From positions 1 to 21,147 of the IMG/VR virus record IMGVR_UViG_3300024317_000018: a stretch of DNA of 21,147 nt; one strand, 5' to 3'. Below, piece by piece: positions 2,577 through 17,870 of the stretch; position 1 is the stretch's first letter, and every line of letters begins with the position of its first letter. The translations under genes and the position numbers were made by a program. This DNA is from a virus. The notes below the pieces were generated by a model, which worked only from the letters and a program-made list of their open reading frames with translations, was not told the DNA's origin and did no database searches.

Positions 2577-2833
2577 CCTTTCATCGGCTCCGAGAGCGCA
2601 CAGAGGCTGGATACGTGATCCATGCGGACAACAATGCCTTTGACGCCACGCTCTGCGGCTACGCCTACGAAGGCAGCGCCATCCAAGGCGAAGGCGACAG
2701 CGGGGTCGAGGAAGTGGCGCGCGGCAAGATCAACTGCGCCGACTGCCTCCGCATCATCTGGCACAGCAAGGGCATCCCCAACCGGGTGCTCTCCGAGCCT
2801 GATCCGCGCCGCATCGTCAAAGTCAAGAGGTAG
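2573..2833 (+). CDS. Small phage protein with CxxC pair
   Basis: An 86-residue protein starting at ATG 2573, which overlaps the previous stop (ATGA). The in-frame start further upstream (2465) would lie inside the preceding gene and is rejected. Notable are THR/ATLCG near residue 28, a KINCADC pair of cysteines with two residues between them around residue 56, and a basic C-terminus (RRIVKVKR). The single-Cys-plus-CxxC layout could bind zinc, as in several small phage proteins, but a fourth ligand is not obvious. It is the last gene of the early operon. No function is assigned. Confidence 0.7.
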   Translation: MTFHRLRERTEAGYVIHADNNAFDATLCGYAYEGSAIQGEGDSGVEEVARGKINCADCLRIIWHSKGIPNRVLSEPDPRRIVKVKR

Positions 2834-3030: not shown

Positions 3031-4107
3031 ATGACGCTCCAGGCCGTTTGTTGGGCCTTCGACCAGGAACTCCCCTGTGCCCACAAGTTCGTCCTAGTTG
3101 CCCTCGCCGACATGACGGACAGCGACGATTGTTGTTGGCCGTCTCAAACCTTCCTTGCTGAGCGGTGCGGCCTATCTCGGCAGTATGTGAACAAGGTGCT
3201 CGGCGATCTAGAGCGCGACCGCTACATCGCCATAGCTTCCCGATCCAGGCCGAATGGTTCAGACGCTTCCTGCCGCTATCAACTGATGCTTCCGCCAGAG
3301 ATGGCCGCGGTCGAAGCCCCGAGACAGCAGGAACCTGGATTTGTCTATGTCATAGTCGGCGACAAGAGCGTGAAAATAGGCATCACGAGAGACCTTGATC
3401 GACGCATTTATGCCATACGAAGCGCGACGGGAGACAAGACACTCGCTTTGGTCGAGTCATGGGCGATGGGCATGGTTGAAGCTCGCAGGATCGAGAAAGC
3501 CGCGCACGATTATTTTGAAAGCAAACGGCTTCATGGCGAATGGTTTGACATCAAAGCCACCGAAGCCGTTGCGAAAATTAAATTATTGGTGTCAACAGAG
3601 AGGACACCACCCTGTGTCAACAGGGAAGACACCCCGGTGTCTACCAAAGAGACACCCCACTTCGTTCTAACCTCTCAGAAAGAACCTACCCCCCATACCC
3701 CCCGCAAGCGGGGGGCGAACGTTGAAGGTTTTGAGGCTTGGTGGCAAGGGTATCCGCGCAAGGTTGGAAAGGATGATGCGTTGAAGGCTTGGGCTAAGGC
3801 TCTCGCCTTGGCGTCAGTGGAGGAGCTTACCGCTGGTCGAGACCGATACGCTGCCGATTGCGCTACTCGTGGCACCGAGGAGCAATTTATCAAACACGCT
3901 TCCCGTTGGCTCAACGGTAAATGCTGGCTCGACGAGCCATCCAAGAAATCGAACGGCAACGGCGCAAGCAACGGCTTAATGAGCTACGACGAGCCCTGGC
4001 CGCAACGGGTTCGCAGCTGGAAGCGCGACGGTGTTTGGATGTTCGATCAGTGGGGGCCGCGGCCGGGTGAGCCAGGCTGTCGAGCGCCTCCGGAGCTGGT
4101 GGCTTGA
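3031..4107 (+). CDS. Replication-initiator-like protein with central GIY-YIG (T5orf172) domain
   Basis: A 358-residue three-part protein. Residues about 1-88 are a winged HTH of the HTH_36 kind (WPSQTFLAERCGLSRQYVNKVLGDLERDRYI). Residues about 103-185 match the T5orf172/MUG113 GIY-YIG nuclease pattern: FVYVIVG, KIGITRDLDRR, an IEKAAHDYF helix and GEWFDI. Residues 187-222 are a Thr/Pro linker with three TP-containing repeats. Residues about 231-303 (GFEAWWQGYPRKVGKDDALKAW ... ASRWLNGKCWLDEP) resemble the C-terminal domain of phage replisome organisers that load a helicase. The most likely role is origin binding and helicase recruitment, with an added DNA-cleaving or DNA-binding module. ATG 3031 follows the promoter and structured leader. 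The 3' end overlaps a convergent gene by 61 bases. Confidence 0.8.
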   Translation: MTLQAVCWAFDQELPCAHKFVLVALADMTDSDDCCWPSQTFLAERCGLSRQYVNKVLGDLERDRYIAIASRSRPNGSDASCRYQLMLPPEMAAVEAPRQQEPGFVYVIVGDKSVKIGITRDLDRRIYAIRSATGDKTLALVESWAMGMVEARRIEKAAHDYFESKRLHGEWFDIKATEAVAKIKLLVSTERTPPCVNREDTPVSTKETPHFVLTSQKEPTPHTPRKRGANVEGFEAWWQGYPRKVGKDDALKAWAKALALASVEELTAGRDRYAADCATRGTEEQFIKHASRWLNGKCWLDEPSKKSNGNGASNGLMSYDEPWPQRVRSWKRDGVWMFDQWGPRPGEPGCRAPPELVA

Positions 4108-4654: not shown

Positions 4655-4728
4655 ATCCGGGATTTCTCCTACGATGGCTCAAAATGCCCCGTATCTGGGG
4701 CGTGAGTGGGGGGAAGGGTCGGGGAGCG

Positions 4729-5091
4729 TCAGGTTTTCTGTGCTCGCAGGCGGGCAATTTCTTCCTTCAATCGCTTTCGATAGGCGCGGCGGGTGCATTT
4801 TGTCGAACAGAAGCGCGCCCATGCTGTTTTGATGGGAAACGGGGAGCCGCAAGTTTCGCACGCTCCTTCACCCCGGATCTTGCGATGCTCCTTGAGATTA
4901 GGTTCCTTGATGGACTGTCTGTGCAGCCGGTTGTGGTCGGTCCCCTCGATCAGAACCAGATTGTTCGGCGCATTGTTTTTCTCGTTTCCATCAACGTGAT
5001 GAAGCTCAAAGCCATCAGCGATATGTTCGGCAAGCCACGTTGCGGAGCGTTCCGGATGGGCATTTAGCCATGCGCGATTGCGTGGGCTCAT
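4729..5091 (-). CDS. HNH endonuclease with C-terminal zinc-finger-like Cys cluster
   Basis: A 120-residue HNH nuclease. The beta-beta-alpha metal motif is visible as LHHVDGNEKNNAPNNLVLIEG, with HH at 31-32, Asn at 36, 39, 40 and 43-44, and later His at 53 and 57. A second metal site is likely formed by CETC (78-81) and FCSTKC (95-99), followed by a basic RRAYRKR segment that may bind DNA. The N-terminus (MSPRNRAWLNAHPE) resembles free-standing HNH homing-type enzymes of phages. It sits alone between small genes, with 73 bases after it and 81 before it, which fits a mobile homing endonuclease rather than a packaging HNH. Start ATG 5091 has an AAGGGA box 12 bases upstream. Confidence 0.85.
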   Translation of the reverse strand: MSPRNRAWLNAHPERSATWLAEHIADGFELHHVDGNEKNNAPNNLVLIEGTDHNRLHRQSIKEPNLKEHRKIRGEGACETCGSPFPIKTAWARFCSTKCTRRAYRKRLKEEIARLRAQKT

Positions 5092-6041: not shown

Positions 6042-6344
6042 ATGACACTCTCAATTCGCGGCGTGCTTGGCTTACAGCGCAGCGTCACTATCGGCACGGT
6101 GCGCAAGTCCGATCTGGTCGATGGCGATATCGCCTTGCCGGTCGTCGTTAAGATCGGCGGGGATCAGACAGCGAGCCTCTACTTTCGCGAAGGCAAGAAG
6201 CTTTCGCGCATCTCGGGCGGGTTCGATATCAATCAGCCCTTCGAGTGGATCGAGAACTATGCGAAGCGGCTTGCCGGCCTGGGGGCCAAGGTCGCGGTCG
6301 CCGACCTCAACCTGCGCTCCTACGAGGAATTCGGGGCGGGGTAG
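6042..6344 (+). CDS. Hypothetical protein
   Basis: A 100-residue protein starting at ATG 6042, preceded by AAGGGGA about 7 bases upstream. It is beta-rich in its first two thirds (VTIGTVRKSDLVDGDIALPVVVKIGG, ASLYFREGKKL), with a helical segment around IENYAKRLAGLG near the C-terminus. I do not recognise a family. It is a single plus-strand gene between the leftward cassette and the tRNA, consistent with a stand-alone accessory gene. Confidence 0.7.
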   Translation: MTLSIRGVLGLQRSVTIGTVRKSDLVDGDIALPVVVKIGGDQTASLYFREGKKLSRISGGFDINQPFEWIENYAKRLAGLGAKVAVADLNLRSYEEFGAG

Positions 6345-6457
6345 GGACATGACTCTGATGCTTAACGGCGAGCGTCATCACTCTGACTCTTGAAAAAAGT
6401 TCTGCTGCCGCCCCATCTCTGTGTGTTACAGAAAAGCGTGCGTCGGCTCGGCGAAGA

Positions 6458-6534
6458 TGGTGCGCCCGGCAGGATTCGAACCTGCGACCGTGGACTTAGT
6501 AGGACCCCGCTCTATCCAGCTGAGCTACGGGCGC
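6458..6534 (-). tRNA. tRNA-Arg-like gene with ACT anticodon and mismatched anticodon stem
   Basis: Read leftward, 77 bases form a tRNA with a perfect 7-bp acceptor (GCGCCCG/CGGGCGC), a perfect D stem (GCTC/GAGC), a perfect T stem (GCAGG/CCTGC) with TTCGAAT loop, and encoded CCA. The body matches bacterial tRNA-Arg(UCU). The anticodon loop is CTACTAA rather than the usual CTTCTAA, so the anticodon (6498-6500) reads ACT. The anticodon stem GGGTC/GTCCA has two mismatches (27-43 G/A and 30-40 T/T). It may be a decaying or altered tRNA, or a host tRNA-derived segment. The class call rests on the body, not on the anticodon. Confidence 0.8.
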
Positions 6535-6723
6535 ATCGGGTGAAGGTCTCGGCCTTTGGCGCTCGGCTTGGTGTCACAACCACCTTGCCGAGCGTCCCGC
6601 CGGCCTTTCCGGTCTTTATCCGCCGCGCATGATTCCCTCCGCGTTCTGTGGCTAGAAGAACCGCTGCTGCTACCTCGCCGAATGCCTCGCCGATGGCGCA
6701 GTCTTCGATTGCTCGATCAACCT

Positions 6724-6912
6724 ATGAAAGCAGTTCAGCAGAAGGAAACCGGCTTTGTCGAAATCCTCCTCCGTGCGTCTGTTTACGCTCATCTGCGGGA
6801 AGTTCTCGGGCGCTATGCCTCATGCAGCGAAACCGCAGACGACAGCCTATGGCTCGAAACCTTCGTCGCCAATCTCGATCGCCGCGACGCAGAAGACCTT
6901 GGCGTCAACTGA
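6724..6912 (+). CDS. Small hypothetical protein (overlaps next frame)
   Basis: A 62-residue frame from ATG 6724 encoding a helix-rich sequence (FVEILLRASVYAHLREVLGRY, then LWLETFVANLDRRDAEDL). Composition looks like a genuine globular protein. It overlaps, in a different frame, the frame ending at 6973. The upstream plus frame ends in ATGA with this ATG, but that frame has no clear start. There is no obvious Shine-Dalgarno. Either this frame or the next, or both, may be used; I cannot decide from sequence alone. Confidence 0.45.
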   Translation: MKAVQQKETGFVEILLRASVYAHLREVLGRYASCSETADDSLWLETFVANLDRRDAEDLGVN

Positions 6913-6973
6913 ATGCGAATGGTGCCATCGCACCGATTGCATCTGCTTCGAACCGGATTACGAATGGGAATGA
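6815..6973 (+). CDS. Small Cys-rich hypothetical protein (alternative overlapping frame)
   Basis: A 52-residue frame from ATG 6815 (an earlier TTG at 6755 is possible). Its C-terminus, TECEWCHRTDCICFEPDYEWE, has four cysteines and one histidine in 21 residues and looks like a small metal-binding knuckle. Its stop overlaps the ATG of the HTH gene at 6970 as ATGA, the coupling used throughout this genome, which supports translation of at least the C-terminal part. The N-terminal part is low-complexity and overlaps the 6724 frame. Confidence 0.45.
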   Translation: MPHAAKPQTTAYGSKPSSPISIAATQKTLASTECEWCHRTDCICFEPDYEWE

Positions 6974-7227
6974 CCAAAGCTGAACTCCGCGCGTGGATAC
7001 GCGCCCGCGCCATCACGCAGGCAGAGGCCGCAACACTCCTCGGTCTCAGCTTGCCCACACTCGTCCGGCAGATCACCGAGGCGCCCTCAGGCGTCCCCGT
7101 CAGCCGTCAGACCGCTATAATCTGCAACCTCTCCGACGAGCTTGTCGCGATCAAGGTGATGATCGAATACATGAACGACCTCCAGGAAACGCCGCTTAAG
7201 ATGGCTCCTCCCGCTCCGCAGCCATAG
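6970..7227 (+). CDS. Small HTH DNA-binding protein
   Basis: An 85-residue protein with ELRAWIRARAITQAEAATLLGLSLPTLVRQIT, a clear XRE-like helix-turn-helix (about residues 4-35), followed by a helical tail and a Pro-rich end. Start ATG 6970 overlaps the upstream stop (ATGA); the frame extends back to 6913 but without a better signal. It is probably a transcriptional regulator. Its last 10 bases begin an imperfect direct repeat that also ends the gene at 7495-7668. Confidence 0.65.
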   Translation: MTKAELRAWIRARAITQAEAATLLGLSLPTLVRQITEAPSGVPVSRQTAIICNLSDELVAIKVMIEYMNDLQETPLKMAPPAPQP

Positions 7228-9645: not shown

Positions 9646-9923
9646 GGCCCCTATATATAATGTGTGCGCTCTCGCTCGCGGGCTGCGCGGTCCAGCCGCA
9701 GCCGGGCGATCCGGAGGTGACGGCGCGCATTGTCCGGGCCTGCGTCGATTCGGGCCTCTTCAAGATCGCGGACGGGCTCGTTGCGGCGGCTGTCCCGGCG
9801 GCAAGTCTGCCGGTCGCCGTGGTCAATGCGGGCGTCGACCGGGTGTGCGCCAATCCGGCAGCGTTCTCCGCCGACCTCTCGACCGCCGAGTGGGTGACGA
9901 AGAACCTCGCCGCGAAGCTGTGA
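9642..9923 (+). CDS. Phage-encoded lipoprotein
   Basis: A 93-residue protein beginning at GTG 9642 (overlapping the previous stop as GTGA). The start MRPLYIMCALSLAGC is a short lipoprotein signal: a positive charge, a hydrophobic core and a lipobox LAGC with the lipid-accepting Cys at 15. The rest is a small helical periplasmic domain (VTARIVRACVDSGLF, AAVPAASLPVAVVNAGVD, STAEWVTKNLAAKL). After two membrane proteins it could be an Rz1-like or other outer-membrane lysis factor, but it lacks the Pro-rich Rz1 sequence, and no Rz partner is visible. Its stop overlaps the large terminase GTG start. Confidence 0.7.
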   Translation: MRPLYIMCALSLAGCAVQPQPGDPEVTARIVRACVDSGLFKIADGLVAAAVPAASLPVAVVNAGVDRVCANPAAFSADLSTAEWVTKNLAAKL

Positions 9924-12070
9924 GCTCCAGCCGCCTCGCGATCCCGCCCGAGTTCCGCGCGGCGAGGAAGGCGGGCGACAAGGCCGCGCTCGCCGATTTC
10001 GCCCTCGAATCCGTCCGCCGGCTGCACGAGGACCGCTGGTTCGCCCACGCTCACCTCTTCGCCCACCGCCACCCGGACGCCTCGGCTCGAGCGCACCGGG
10101 AGATGGTCGCCGCGATCAACCGCCCGATCCCGCGCCTCTCGATCGAGGGCTTCCGCGGCATCGGCAAGACCACCTACACCGAGGAAACCGCGCTCATGAA
10201 GGCCGTTTTCCGCGAGTTCCACAACCTCGTCATCATCGGCCCCTCGTTCGCCCGCGCCTGCGACCGCGTGACCGCGATCCGCAACGAGATCGACACCAAC
10301 CCCTACTTCGCCGAGGACGGCCTCTTCGGCAAGCTGAAGGGAGAGACCTGGGCGGACGGCAAGATCGTGCTCGGCTCCGACATCATGATCCAGGCATTGG
10401 GACGCGAGCAGTCGATCACCGGGCTCAAATTTCTCCAATGGCGCCCGGATGCTTTTATCATCGACGACATCGAAGACCCCGAGGAAGAGCGCACCGACGC
10501 CGAGCGCGAGAAGACCTGGCGCTGGCTGAAGCAGACGTTCCAGCCCTGCCTCGACGATGCGCTCCTGACTTGGGGCCGCTTCCTCGGCACCCGCCGCGGC
10601 AAGAACAGCCTCCCCGAACGGCTCGAAAATGACCGGATGCCAGTCGTAAAGTTCCCGATCGAGAGCGTCGGCGAGAACGGCGAGCGCACCGCAACGTGGC
10701 CGGCAAAGTTTCCACTCGATAAGATCGATACGCTGCGGGAGGACTACCGGGGTGACCTCAACCTCTACGAGCAGGAGTTCATGTGCCGCGCCTCCTCGGA
10801 CGCGGCCCGCGTGTTCAAGCGCGAGATGTTCCGCTACGAGGAGCGCATCCGCACCTGGGAGGCAGTCTATGGAATGGTCGACCCCGCCCGCACCAGTCAC
10901 GGCAACGCCGCCGCGACCGGATACGCCATCTGGTCCTGGGTCAAGAACCGCCTCGTGGTTTGGGCCTGCGATGCCCTGTTCCTTGCTCCCGACGAGATCG
11001 TGGCCCTCGCTTTTGATCTTTGCGAACGGTACGACCTCATCCAGCTTGGAGTGGAGCGTGACGGACTGGAGCAGTTTCTCCTTCAGCCGCTACGCCACGA
11101 GCAGGTAAAGCGCGGGGTCATGCTGCCGCTGAAGCCTATCGCAGCAATCAGCGGGACGCAGGGCCGCGGCCAGACCCGCTTCATCGAGGGGCTGCAACCC
11201 TATTTTCAGGCCCGGGAGGTGATCTTTGCCCAACCTTTCCCTGCCCTTGAGGCTCAACTGCTCAGTTTCCCGCACGGCATTCGCGACGCGGCAAATGCGC
11301 TTGCATATGCGCCGACGCTGCGCCCAGCCCAGCCGATCTACGACGGCTTCGATCCCGTCAGCCACGTCGTCGAAGGCGTCGACATCGCCGCCGGCCAGCC
11401 CATCGCCCTCGCCGCCAACGCCACCGGAGGACTGACCTGTGCGATTCTGGTTCAAGCGTTCGAAGGCACGCTGCGCATCCTCGCCGATTGGGTCTACGAG
11501 GGAAGCCCCGCCGAGCGTGTTGCCGACATCGCCCAAGCCGCCGCCCAGGTCGTCGATTCCTCTCGATTCGTGGCTGTTCCTGTGCCCCGTCCATGGGATG
11601 ATATGCTCAAAGGTCCGCTGCCGGATCGAATGCTTGCTCGACCCAACCGACCCGCCTGGATCGTCCCCCAACTACATTCGGACCGACACATGAATGTCGG
11701 GCTGATGCAGGCGGTGCGCGCGATCCCGAACGAGGTCCGGGTCGGTGGCACGGAAGTCGACGGCACACTCTATATAAGGGACGCGCTCGCGCGCACGGTG
11801 CGCGGGATGCCGGTGGTCGAGGTCAGCCCCGCCGCCAAGTGGACGCTGCGGGCGCTCGCTGGAGGCTACACCCGCGGAATGATCCGGGGCCGCCTGCAGG
11901 ACAGCGCCGAGGAAGGCCCCTATCGCGTGCTGATGGAGGGCCTCGAAGCGTTCTGCGGCTCGATCCGCTTCGCCGCGGTGGACAATGACGAGGATACCGC
12001 GCAAAACTACCGCGTCGATGAGCGAAGCGGGCGCCGCTACGCGAGCGCGATGCCGATGAGGACGCGGTGA
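9920..12070 (+). CDS. terL: Terminase large subunit
   Basis: A 716-residue packaging motor that pumps DNA into the procapsid using ATP and cuts it to length. The ATPase part has Walker A GFRGIGKTT (77-85), Walker B FIIDDIED (179-186) and a coupling region WGRFLGT (218-224). The RNase-H-like nuclease follows: MVDPARTSHG with D321, VERDGLEQF (E379, D381) and RDAANALAY (D456). After that comes an unusual C-terminal part of about 240 residues, starting GVDIAAGQPIALAANATGGL, which looks like a second, degenerate nuclease-like fold. The start GTG 9920 overlaps the lipoprotein stop (GTGA). The frame is open upstream to 9662, but that overlaps the lipoprotein gene completely. No small subunit is adjacent. 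Confidence 0.92.
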   Translation: MSSSRLAIPPEFRAARKAGDKAALADFALESVRRLHEDRWFAHAHLFAHRHPDASARAHREMVAAINRPIPRLSIEGFRGIGKTTYTEETALMKAVFREFHNLVIIGPSFARACDRVTAIRNEIDTNPYFAEDGLFGKLKGETWADGKIVLGSDIMIQALGREQSITGLKFLQWRPDAFIIDDIEDPEEERTDAEREKTWRWLKQTFQPCLDDALLTWGRFLGTRRGKNSLPERLENDRMPVVKFPIESVGENGERTATWPAKFPLDKIDTLREDYRGDLNLYEQEFMCRASSDAARVFKREMFRYEERIRTWEAVYGMVDPARTSHGNAAATGYAIWSWVKNRLVVWACDALFLAPDEIVALAFDLCERYDLIQLGVERDGLEQFLLQPLRHEQVKRGVMLPLKPIAAISGTQGRGQTRFIEGLQPYFQAREVIFAQPFPALEAQLLSFPHGIRDAANALAYAPTLRPAQPIYDGFDPVSHVVEGVDIAAGQPIALAANATGGLTCAILVQAFEGTLRILADWVYEGSPAERVADIAQAAAQVVDSSRFVAVPVPRPWDDMLKGPLPDRMLARPNRPAWIVPQLHSDRHMNVGLMQAVRAIPNEVRVGGTEVDGTLYIRDALARTVRGMPVVEVSPAAKWTLRALAGGYTRGMIRGRLQDSAEEGPYRVLMEGLEAFCGSIRFAAVDNDEDTAQNYRVDERSGRRYASAMPMRTR

Positions 12071-12861: not shown

Positions 12862-13071
12862 ATGATCGAAGTTCGGATCACGCCCGCCGATCGTTATAAT
12901 TTGCCGTTCGGAATACCGGAGCTGCAGATTGCTCGGCTGTTGACCGAGCGCGGGATCAGATTCCGCCGGGATTGTTCCTTCATTCCGCAGGCGGATGATA
13001 TGGAGCCACCGTGGGAGTGGTGGCATGATATCCGAACGGGTGATCTTGTCGTGCGGCAGGGCGATGTCTGA
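12862..13071 (+). CDS. Small hypothetical protein
   Basis: A 69-residue protein (MIEVRITPADRYNLPFGIPE; ending WEWWHDIRTGDLVVRQGDV), probably alpha/beta with a Trp-rich segment. Its stop overlaps the portal start: the portal ATG is at 13064, eight bases before this gene's last base. No family recognised. Confidence 0.65.
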   Translation: MIEVRITPADRYNLPFGIPELQIARLLTERGIRFRRDCSFIPQADDMEPPWEWWHDIRTGDLVVRQGDV

Positions 13072-15280
13072 CGCCGGGCTTGTGCTTGAGCCGGAACCCG
13101 CTACGGCGCCGGACGGCTCTGGCGATGGTGGGGAGGAACGCGCCGCGCCAACGCGCGACCGCGACCTCCTTGCCGGGCGCAACCAAAAGCTCCGCGACAA
13201 GCTCGACGATGTGTTCAATCACGTCTTGCGCGCGTTCGAGGACCAGAACGAACGCTCGGCCGACATCGACGATTATTGGGACTGCTACAACTGCCAAGCG
13301 AACGGCAACCAGTATTACAACGGCATCGCGAACATCTTTTTCCCGATCATCCACGATGCCGTCAACGCCATCGTCACCCGGTTTTCCAACCAGATGTGCC
13401 CGCAATCCGGGCGATACCTGGAGATCGTTGCGGCAGACGGCACGCAGCCGCAGCCGCTGATCGGCCTCCTCGAACACTATCTGCGCGATGCCCGGTTCGA
13501 GACGCAGGTCCTGAAGCCCCTCATTCGCCTCGCGATCATCGAGGGCCAATACAACCTCTACGTCGATTGGGCTGAGCTCGAACGCGAGATTGTTTCACGT
13601 GAAACACATGGTCCCCGGGTCGAGGTCGCAGGGCAGCAGATGGAGGCCCCGGGCGAGGACATTGAGGACATGGGTGAGCCCGAGCTGATCCGTGAGGGCC
13701 GACCCGTTTTCGACGTGCTGCACGATAGCGATGTCGTGGTGTGGCCGGCCAACGTCGACTCGCTGGAGGAGGCGTTCGCGATCGGCGGAGGCGTCGCCAT
13801 CGTCCGCCATTGGACCAAGGCCAAGATCGACCAGATGGTTGAGCAGGGATGCATCCGGCGTCCTGAGGGCAAGGCGCTCAAAGAGTCGATGGACAAGGTG
13901 TCCAAGGATCAGCCCAACGTCGAGAAGCACTTGGCCGAGGCGGTCGGCATTCATCCCAAGGGCGTCGGCGCAACGGTCTGGGAGGTGTGGCTGACGCTGC
14001 CCCTCGACAAGAACGGCGGCTACAGCGAGGATGGCGACCATCGGCTCTGCCGGGTCTTTCTCGGCCCGAACCGGGCGCAGCTCGGGGCCAAGCGCAACCC
14101 CTACTGGAACGACCGCTGCCCGCTCCTCTCGGTGCCGATCGAGAAAACCCCGGGCGTCTTCAAGGGGAAGTCGCTCATCAGTTATGTCGACAGCCTGCAA
14201 TACGAGGCCAACGATGCTATTAATGAGGGGGCGGATGCGGCTACGTTATCCGCGGCGCCCATCGTCTTGCGTGACCCCGAGAAATCCAACGGTCCATTGG
14301 TATTCGGAGTTGGTGCCATCTGGGACGGCGGAAAGGACGCGATTAGCCTACTTACGTTCCCAGATCTCACCCCCAGGGCACAGACCCGCGTACAGATGGC
14401 GCTTGCCGCCATATTCCAGTCGCTAGGCGTCAACCCGTCGATGCTCCCGCAGCAGACCCGCGCCGGGAAGCCAAATCAGGCGATGGTAGCGCAGGAGCAG
14501 CAGGTCGACCTCCTGACGACGGCGGAAGGGGTCAAGGTGCCGGTCGAGGGCATCCTGACGCCGATGCTCGGGCTCATCGTCGATTACGATTACCAATTCC
14601 GCGACACCGATTTGACGATCCGCCAGTTTGGCGAGATGGGCGTGCGGGCCCGGCTCGAACAGGTGCCGCCGCTGCAGAACCGCCACGGCTACACGTTCCT
14701 CTGGCGTGGGGCCGAGCAGGTCAAGATGGCAGGGATGATGGCGCAGGCCGGCACCGCATGGATGGCTGCGCTGATGCAGCCGGCGATGCAGGCCGCTCTC
14801 GCCAAGGCCGGGTACGAGTTCGATCCCGCTCCGCTCGTCATCATGCAGAACCAAAACCTCTTTGGGGCCTACCTCGGCAACCAGGTGCTCATTAATCAGC
14901 GCGAGATGCTGACGATGGACCCGGAGATGGAGAACCAGATCCTCAACAGCGGGCAGCATCTGCACGTCCACCCGCTCGACCAGGACATCCCGCACCTGAA
15001 AAGCCACATGGCCGACAAGCAGATGAGCGGCGATCCGTTCGGCACGGTCGGCGAGCACATCGCGGCACATCTCCAGTCGATGCAGATGAAGAACATGGCG
15101 GCGATGCAGGCCGCCCAGGCGAGGACCGGCGGCGGGGCTCCGGCGGGCGGCCAAGGATCGCGCGGGCCGCAGCCGGGCGCGCTGCCCGCGGGGCCGCACG
15201 CTCCGCCTCGCCCGCCGGGCCTGCCGCATCCCGACCAGAATGCGCAGTCTGGTATCGTGGCGATGCCGAGGAGGCAATGA
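13064..15280 (+). CDS. Portal protein
   Basis: A 738-residue protein with the size and gene position of a podovirus-type portal: after terminase, before scaffold and capsid. The N-terminal segment (about residues 41-115) has DDYWDCYNCQANGNQYYNGIAN then IFFPIIHDAVNAIVTRF, like other large portals of the N4/P22-type class. Mid-region segments include KSLISYVDSLQYEANDAINEGADA and RVQMALAAIFQSLGVNPSM, typical of the portal crown/stem helices. The last 50 residues are Gly/Pro/Ala-rich and probably disordered. ATG 13064 follows GGCAGGGCG; the in-frame upstream start (12995) lies in the preceding gene. It would form the 12-subunit ring that admits DNA and joins head to neck. Confidence 0.88.
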   Translation: MSDAGLVLEPEPATAPDGSGDGGEERAAPTRDRDLLAGRNQKLRDKLDDVFNHVLRAFEDQNERSADIDDYWDCYNCQANGNQYYNGIANIFFPIIHDAVNAIVTRFSNQMCPQSGRYLEIVAADGTQPQPLIGLLEHYLRDARFETQVLKPLIRLAIIEGQYNLYVDWAELEREIVSRETHGPRVEVAGQQMEAPGEDIEDMGEPELIREGRPVFDVLHDSDVVVWPANVDSLEEAFAIGGGVAIVRHWTKAKIDQMVEQGCIRRPEGKALKESMDKVSKDQPNVEKHLAEAVGIHPKGVGATVWEVWLTLPLDKNGGYSEDGDHRLCRVFLGPNRAQLGAKRNPYWNDRCPLLSVPIEKTPGVFKGKSLISYVDSLQYEANDAINEGADAATLSAAPIVLRDPEKSNGPLVFGVGAIWDGGKDAISLLTFPDLTPRAQTRVQMALAAIFQSLGVNPSMLPQQTRAGKPNQAMVAQEQQVDLLTTAEGVKVPVEGILTPMLGLIVDYDYQFRDTDLTIRQFGEMGVRARLEQVPPLQNRHGYTFLWRGAEQVKMAGMMAQAGTAWMAALMQPAMQAALAKAGYEFDPAPLVIMQNQNLFGAYLGNQVLINQREMLTMDPEMENQILNSGQHLHVHPLDQDIPHLKSHMADKQMSGDPFGTVGEHIAAHLQSMQMKNMAAMQAAQARTGGGAPAGGQGSRGPQPGALPAGPHAPPRPPGLPHPDQNAQSGIVAMPRRQ

Positions 15281-16517: not shown

Positions 16518-17870
16518 ATGGCCCAAGGTTCGACCCCAAATCAAAGCAATCAGTATGCCGGCATTACGACCCGGTTCATCGCCCGAGAGGCGATGGAGCA
16601 GACCCAGCGGTATCTCGTCCTCTATCAGTTCTCCGACAAGAAGACGATCCCGCACGGTCGCGGCGTCCAGTGGGAGGCGTTCCGCTGGAACTACATGAAC
16701 CTGCCGCGGTTCCCGACCGCGGAAGGTGTGCCGCCCAATCCGAACAGCCTCGATTTCACCCAAGTCACCGGCACCGCCGTTCAGTGGGCGGGGCGCTGGG
16801 TTGGTACCGATGTCGCGACGATCACGACCCAACAGGATCTGATGCGCGCGGCCGGGAAGCAGCTCGGGATGCAGCTCGCGCAGCTGAAGGAGCGCAACGG
16901 CTTCGTCAACATGAATGCCGGAACGCAGATCAACTACGCAAACGCGGTGGGATCGCGCGCCAGCCTCGCGGCAACCGACATCCTCAACCCGACCGATGTC
17001 AACCGGACCTACGCCAATCTCTCGAACCTCGGCGCGCAGAAATGGAACGGGCAGACCGGCGAGACCGTCGAGCGCTCGATCGACTACACTGCGCGTAATT
17101 CCGAGAAGACGATCAAGGGCGTCGAGCACTATGTCGCCGTCGCTTCGATCTTCCCGCTGGAGGATCTGCGCAACAATCCGACCGTCGTCAACGCCTGGAG
17201 CCGGTCGGACATCGACCGCCTCTACATCAACCAGATGGGCTATTGGGGCGGGATCACGTTCTGCGAAACCAACATGGCCCCGAATTGGCTCGGCACCGAT
17301 GCTCCGACCGGAGTGAACGCCATCGGGAACCTGACCACCGGCACCTATACCATCGTCGTCACCGGCTGGGACGATGCGAAATTCTACGAGAGCCGGATTT
17401 CGCAACTCTCCGCCGACATCTCGGTCACGACCGGCGGCATCCAGGTCACGGTGCCCTCGACCACAGGCTTCACCTACGCGGTCTATGTCGGCGTCGGCTC
17501 GGCAGCCCTGCCCACGCAATTGGGCCTCACCACCTCTGGCCCAACCACGGGTTCATTCGCGGGCCAGGCGATCGAGATCCCGCCCGGGACCGTCGTGACG
17601 ATCACCGGCCTTGGCGCCCAGATGATCCCGCCGGCCGCGCCGACCAGTGGCGTCACCGTCTACCCCGTCTACATCTTCGGGCGCGAGGCCTTCGCCTGTC
17701 TCAAGCTGGAAGGCGTCCAGTGGCTGCGCCCGAGCGGGGCCGATAAGGCGGACCAGCTCGATCAGCTCCGCGTGATCGGGTACAAATTCATGGAGGGGTG
17801 GACGATCCTCGACCAGCGCAAGATGGCCCGCATCGAGTGCTCGGCCAGCAACTCCGGCACGTTCAATTAG
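16518..17870 (+). CDS. Major capsid protein, N4-gp56 family
   Basis: A 450-residue coat protein of the N4-gp56 type (HK97 fold). Recognisable parts: N-terminal FIAREAMEQTQRYLVLYQF, then KKTIPHGRG, NLPRFPTAEGVPPN, and QWAGRWVGTDVATITTQQD. A mid region YVAVASIFPLEDLRNN leads to an end YPVYIFGREAFACLKLEGV with VIGYKFMEGWTILDQRKMARIE. Residues about 268-376 form an extra beta-rich, Ig-like segment (NLTTGTYTIVVTGW to VVTITGLGAQMIPPAAP) inserted before the C-terminal part. ATG 16518 lies 11 bases after a GGGAGG site. Several hundred copies would form the head shell. Confidence 0.88.
   Translation: MAQGSTPNQSNQYAGITTRFIAREAMEQTQRYLVLYQFSDKKTIPHGRGVQWEAFRWNYMNLPRFPTAEGVPPNPNSLDFTQVTGTAVQWAGRWVGTDVATITTQQDLMRAAGKQLGMQLAQLKERNGFVNMNAGTQINYANAVGSRASLAATDILNPTDVNRTYANLSNLGAQKWNGQTGETVERSIDYTARNSEKTIKGVEHYVAVASIFPLEDLRNNPTVVNAWSRSDIDRLYINQMGYWGGITFCETNMAPNWLGTDAPTGVNAIGNLTTGTYTIVVTGWDDAKFYESRISQLSADISVTTGGIQVTVPSTTGFTYAVYVGVGSAALPTQLGLTTSGPTTGSFAGQAIEIPPGTVVTITGLGAQMIPPAAPTSGVTVYPVYIFGREAFACLKLEGVQWLRPSGADKADQLDQLRVIGYKFMEGWTILDQRKMARIECSASNSGTFN

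Follow-up and report, generated by a model that had tools for sequence, protein, structure and literature searches.

The roles of phage tRNAs are debated and have been assigned to codon supply, to the evasion of nucleases and to lysogeny. In tRNAs of mycobacteriophages of cluster C1, altered anticodon loops were proposed to resist anticodon nucleases (PMC10264068), and phage tRNAs were also proposed to act in the evasion of retrons (PMC11555353). In the case of tRNA-dependent lysogeny, phage tRNAs are linked to integration, and anticodon loops are common sites of crossover by integrases (PMC10865867). Here we describe a phage tRNA gene that combines the body of a tRNA-Arg(UCU) with an ACU anticodon placed on a mispaired stem. 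Our search of the literature on phage tRNAs with an ACU anticodon found no paper.

Results

Genomic setting of the tRNA gene

The analysed stretch of DNA, which we refer to as the window, comprises 21,147 bases of an IMG/VR virus record (IMGVR_UViG_3300024317_000018) with a G+C content of 63%, and its source is a tailed phage. The following features are relevant for the description of the locus:

6042–6344, plus strand, 100-aa open reading frame without family match that borders the slot on the left
about 6049–6970, accessory slot with the tRNA, occupied in relatives by other sequence without tRNA (alignment of L008 and L041–L043 on both flanks)
6458–6534, minus strand, tRNA gene with Arg(UCU)-type body and ACU anticodon (ARAGORN, Rfam RF00005, arm parsing)
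6458–6460, encoded CCA of the tRNA gene
6491–6507, minus strand, anticodon arm GGGTC-CTACTAA-GTCCA with the mispairs G27.A43 and U30.U40 (direct reading)
6498–6500, minus strand, anticodon ACU formed by A34, C35 and U36 (direct reading, ARAGORN)
6560–6594, imperfect inverted repeat located 26 nt upstream from the tRNA gene, whose 14-nt arms show 86% complementarity
6970–7227, plus strand, small HTH-like protein that delimits the slot on the right and is conserved (sub-threshold Pfam HTH_17; relatives)
9920–12070, plus strand, terminase large subunit, part of the phage context (phrog_38, E 1.5e-49)
12995–15280, adjacent open reading frame of 761 aa, assigned as portal from its position
16518–17870, major head protein

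A set of 30 loci that encode a related portal-like protein was assembled. In the surroundings of the tRNA, two contigs are near-identical to the window, and other relatives are 68–93% identical over the structural genes. The flanks of the slot are kept in more distant relatives, and L008, L041 and others hold a different insert without tRNA. The gene is found in one near-clonal lineage only and is missing from phages that are 68–93% identical elsewhere; it constitutes the single tRNA of a relative of 32.6 kb, and relatives of 39–46 kb contain no tRNA above threshold. Neither a promoter nor a terminator was recognised near the gene. The idea of the slot as a host chromosomal flank that had been carried along was rejected, as it does not match the flanks of 39 genomic tRNA loci. 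Since the same gene is present without difference within 1,901 identical bases of the contigs 3300028072_000110 and 3300024179_000009, a read error is unlikely, and an error of reading or assembly was rejected on the basis of the identical bases in both contigs. As a separate observation, the window encodes an O-like replication-initiation protein (3031–4107, plus strand) with a T5orf172/MUG113 (GIY-YIG-like) domain inserted between its DNA-binding and C-terminal parts.

An arginine tRNA body with an altered anticodon arm

ARAGORN, whose scoring had been proposed as a check, calls a single tRNA in the window (6458–6534, minus strand) with the label tRNA-Ser(act), and the Rfam tRNA model matches the gene over its full length with 59.7 bits (E 7e-11). 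On the minus strand, the 5' half reads GCGCCCG-TA-GCTC-AGCTGGATA-GAGC-G-GGGTC-CTACTAA-, followed after the anticodon loop by -GTCCA-CGGTC-GCAGG-TTCGAAT-CCTGC-CGGGCGC-A-CCA. The initial observation of an Arg(UCU) body with A instead of T at base 34 and two stem mismatches was confirmed. By arm parsing, pairing is complete in the acceptor (7/7), D (4/4) and T (5/5) arms, which match a proteobacterial tRNA-Arg(UCU/CCU) body, and the mismatches G27.A43 and U30.U40 leave 3/5 pairs in the anticodon stem. For canonical tRNA-Arg(UCU) genes that share this body, the Rfam model gives 75–78 bits, which places the window gene 15–18 bits lower. With respect to a functional elongator tRNA-Arg(UCU), the acceptor, D and T arms, the CCA end and A20, C35 and U36 are thus all present, the UCU anticodon is replaced by ACU and the five-base-pair anticodon stem is reduced to three pairs.

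The identity bases of the arginyl-tRNA synthetase (ArgRS) encompass A20, C35, U36 or G36 and a purine at position 73. Since A20, C35, U36 and A73 are all kept, the window tRNA is a plausible ArgRS substrate and we infer that its charging with arginine is plausible. The seryl-tRNA synthetase uses a long variable arm as a recognition feature. In the window tRNA the variable loop is confined to 5 nt (CGGTC) and this short length argues against charging with serine. A34 and the open stem together make the decoding of AGA and AGG unlikely. It could be envisaged that the molecule instead acts as a working but miscoding tRNA, which, once charged with arginine, would read the serine codons AGU and AGC and cause Ser-to-Arg substitutions, as it retains the identity bases for ArgRS, ACU can pair with AGU, and class I bodies with G34 exist too. 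However, the opened stem should weaken its use by the ribosome, and since AGC is an ordinary codon in the phage (13 per 1000), miscoding would damage the phage's own proteins, and we consider this explanation highly improbable. Two further candidates were set aside: a shift in register towards an amber suppressor (CUA is found twice in CUACUAA), where no shifted register retains U33, and a chimera with tRNA-Arg(ACG), prompted by G26 and A34, which is unsupported by known ACG stem sequences.

Comparison with chromosomal tRNA-Arg genes

A comparison with bacterial tRNA-Arg genes found the body of the window tRNA to be identical in 39 bacterial genomes, most of them Alpha- and Gammaproteobacteria, with the anticodons UCU (37) and CCU (2), U or C at position 34 in 39/39 and A34 in none. 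Base 26 is G in the window tRNA and A in all 39 of these genomes and in 88/89 chromosomal Arg(UCU) genes, which were obtained from 120 Pseudomonadota genomes and served as chromosomal control. Within this control, stem pairs 28–31 are intact in 88/89 genes and the 27-43 mispair also occurs in 8/89, so that the truly abnormal features of the window gene are U30.U40 and A34. No chromosomal A34 tRNA was found among 754 Alpha- and Gammaproteobacteria; a lone match, in G283, was judged to be due to chance.

Recurrence of the altered arm in unrelated phages

tRNAs with an ACU anticodon are rare in IMG/VR, where a pattern that included an Arg-like D stem retrieved 16 stretches, about 13 of them distinct, from 2.9 million viral contigs. 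A second pattern added L110 and L114 and also gave L101, which is unclear, and L106, an ACU tRNA-like gene whose stem is paired and contains G39-U40. An ACU loop on an Arg-like body recurs, together with mispairs in the anticodon stem, in several contigs that are unrelated to the window (L098, L089, L093, L094, L095, L110 and L114), and in L098 the exact 17-nt anticodon arm of the window is found on a different body. In tests that were devised after the data had been seen, on small sets and with only nine sequences in the best control of phage UCU tRNAs, at least two anticodon-stem mispairs are found in 6/13 distinct A34 phage tRNAs, compared to 0/16 in a G34 control retrieved with the same pattern (20 stretches, about 16 distinct; Fisher p 0.004) and 0/89 in the chromosomal Arg(UCU) control (p 1e-6), and G39-U40 is tied to A34, with 6/13 compared to 1/89 chromosomal Arg(UCU) genes (p 8e-6) and to 1/16 G34 controls (p 0.03). 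Among other phage tRNAs in the fetched contigs, two stem mispairs were observed in 1/90.

In an alignment of eight ACU cases, pairing reaches 95%, 100% and 95% in the acceptor, D and T helices, with many changes on both sides, and the outer anticodon pairs 27-43 and 28-42 similarly covary. In the same arm, all eight have C-G at 31-39, and pairing is absent at 29-41 in 6/8 and at 30-40 likewise in 6/8. The search patterns had prescribed the loop, some parts of the D and T arms and, in the case of L110 and L114, G39-U40 as well, so that the invariance of the loop and of these arm parts provides no evidence. The eight phages have no gene neighbourhood in common. Since three arms and the outer anticodon pairs are spared, random decay is argued against at the level of the group, and similar damage of the anticodon arm in unrelated phages is commoner than expected by chance and may thus reflect a kept feature instead of decay.

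For the window gene itself, these data have to be weighed against the possibility of a recently acquired passenger tRNA-Arg(UCU) that was inactivated by about three substitutions in its anticodon arm and is now functionless. Its confinement to a near-clonal lineage, its location in a variable slot where no promoter was recognised and the loss of 15–18 bits relative to intact genes all speak for a passenger, and three changes would suffice to derive the gene from a paired UCU tRNA. In contrast, every lesion is located within the anticodon arm, lesions of the same type are found in unrelated phages where the other arms covary, and the mispaired arm is identical in L098 but the body is not. The decaying gene that was considered in the original prediction is thus disfavoured for the group, where lesions cluster in the anticodon arm and the other arms covary, but it keeps a sizeable, if minor, chance for the window gene. 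Because only one near-clonal lineage carries this gene, we regard a passenger as nearly as likely in its case as the favoured role as bait that is described in the Discussion.

Relation to attachment sites

The anticodon arm might alternatively constitute a recombination core, either as attachment site or its descendant, or as the joint between two tRNA halves that were connected at the loop by a tyrosine integrase. Such an origin would be in line with the frequent use of anticodon loops for integrase crossover (PMC10865867), with the integrase gene that adjoins the ACU tRNAs of L098 and L110, with a repeat of GGGGTCCTACTA, which comprises 12 bases of the arm, at a distance of 73 nt upstream from the L098 tRNA and with the 5' stem strand GGTGC of L095, which, as predicted for a chimera, is found in a normal chromosomal tRNA too. 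Conversely, the closest relatives of the window, whose records may be incomplete, show no match to PF00589 integrases or PF00239 recombinases, a relative of 32 kb is devoid of a second copy of any part of the tRNA, and both tRNA halves that flank the loop are complete. The integrases of ACU-tRNA contigs are mutually less than 30% identical over their main alignments, which rules out a shared integrase clade as source of the shared arm. The locus therefore shows neither the integrase with a short core in a host tRNA gene that characterises tRNA-dependent lysogeny nor the organisation of an attP, where solely the 3' part of a tRNA is found next to int. An attachment-site relic, as suggested initially, is thus unsupported for the window, and we consider this origin improbable, ranking third after a bait and a passenger.

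Additional tRNA-like genes in viral contigs

In 20 viral contigs (L139–L158), a GCU (Ser AGY) anticodon is combined with class I, mostly Arg-like bodies, the stems of which are for the most part intact. ACU tRNA-like genes whose anticodon stem is fully or almost fully paired are present in L033 (about 10180–10300, minus strand), L096 (about 3726–3850, minus strand) and L106 (about 2650–2740, plus strand), where the D loop seems to hold an insertion of some 35–55 nt; L033 and L096 receive no tRNA call by ARAGORN. In L094 (454–1544, minus strand) and L095 (5993–7067, plus strand), the ACU tRNA is placed directly before a homologous IS1-like transposase gene, as judged by eye, and a second small gene is common to both upstream. 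On the contig of L098 (L119, 7426–7572, minus strand), the GGGGTCCTACTA repeat is located between the tRNA and a tyrosine integrase gene and looks like part of an attachment region. Finally, an ACU tRNA-like element follows just after a Q-like gene in the related lambdoid-like phages L087 (1636–1711, plus strand), L092 (4847–4922, minus strand) and L093 (2682–2757, minus strand). The body of this element is more alike than its flanks. As judged by eye, it is preceded by a promoter-like sequence and followed by a hairpin that resembles a terminator, and L092 also contains the Rfam Proteo-phage-1 RNA at 4681–4759 (minus strand).

Discussion

Our study favours, albeit tentatively, a non-decoding tRNA-Arg that the phage keeps as bait for a host factor with activity on the anticodon arms of tRNA-Arg. 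The phage-borne gene would be a non-decoding derivative of tRNA-Arg(UCU), whose product is predicted to still fold, to end in CCA and to be a plausible substrate of ArgRS, and where A34 and the opened anticodon stem would abolish the normal reading of AGA and AGG. It resembles tRNAs of unrelated phages in the common YUACUAAGU loop and 3' strand and in arms that are paired apart from an internal loop at 29-41/30-40, and as a look-alike of tRNA-Arg it would occupy, or be cut by, a host factor that is aimed at these anticodon arms. Such a bait would fit a molecule that is non-decoding but foldable, in line with the conflicts in which phage tRNAs were described to oppose anticodon nucleases (PMC10264068, PMC11555353). 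Its assignment is favoured by the identical bodies without A34, the excess of mispairs in the A34 set, the link to G39-U40, the covariation and the arm found in L098. Against it count the single near-clonal lineage, the lack of a recognised promoter or terminator and of a common gene neighbourhood among the eight phages, and the fact that known nuclease-evading phage tRNAs keep decoding, whereas the window tRNA should not decode.

With more reserve, since we find it rather doubtful, we propose that mimics of tRNA-Arg without decoding activity constitute an unrecognised family in phages, characterised by a fixed YUACUAAGU loop, by an anticodon stem with an internal loop and by a function outside translation, where the common design could for example serve as bait for tRNA-Arg-directed defence. 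The stretch ACUaAGU (34–40) is self-complementary, which may be chance, and, freed by the open stem, it might permit the loop-to-loop pairing of two such RNAs. If true, a recurrent tRNA that is foldable and chargeable but no longer decodes sense codons would allow the remaining roles of phage tRNAs to be distinguished from decoding and offer a direct handle on tRNA-directed phage defence. In phage annotation, labels such as tRNA-Ser(ACT) can hide non-decoding derivatives of tRNA-Arg.

The properties of the window tRNA overlap with those of several known systems. Similar to the tRNA-dependent lysogeny of Fionnbharth and Gaia (PMC10865867), a phage tRNA is found near an integrase in some of the ACU cases, but in these phages the tRNA must replace its host counterpart, whereas the window tRNA has the wrong anticodon and no integrase was found. 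The element following the Q-like gene in L087, L092 and L093 equally combines an ACU loop and a tRNA-Arg-like body in a phage, but it differs in its shortened acceptor stem, a mispair in the T stem, the absence of CCA, its promoter- and terminator-like flanks and its occurrence in another phage family and position. With the nuclease-evading tRNAs, the window tRNA shares its phage origin and, in the mycobacteriophage case, an altered anticodon loop. Evasion of this kind would combine an altered site of cleavage with continued decoding. However, those tRNAs retain the anticodon and substitute for host tRNAs that have become depleted, whereas in the window tRNA the arm is altered and the anticodon is changed too, and the molecule should not read AGA or AGG. 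Finally, with bacterial tRNA-Arg(UCU) of the E. coli argU type, it has in common the acceptor, D and T arms, A20, C35-U36-A37-A38, A73 and CCA, and it is distinguished from it by A34 in place of U34, the mispairs U30.U40 and G27.A43 and by G26.
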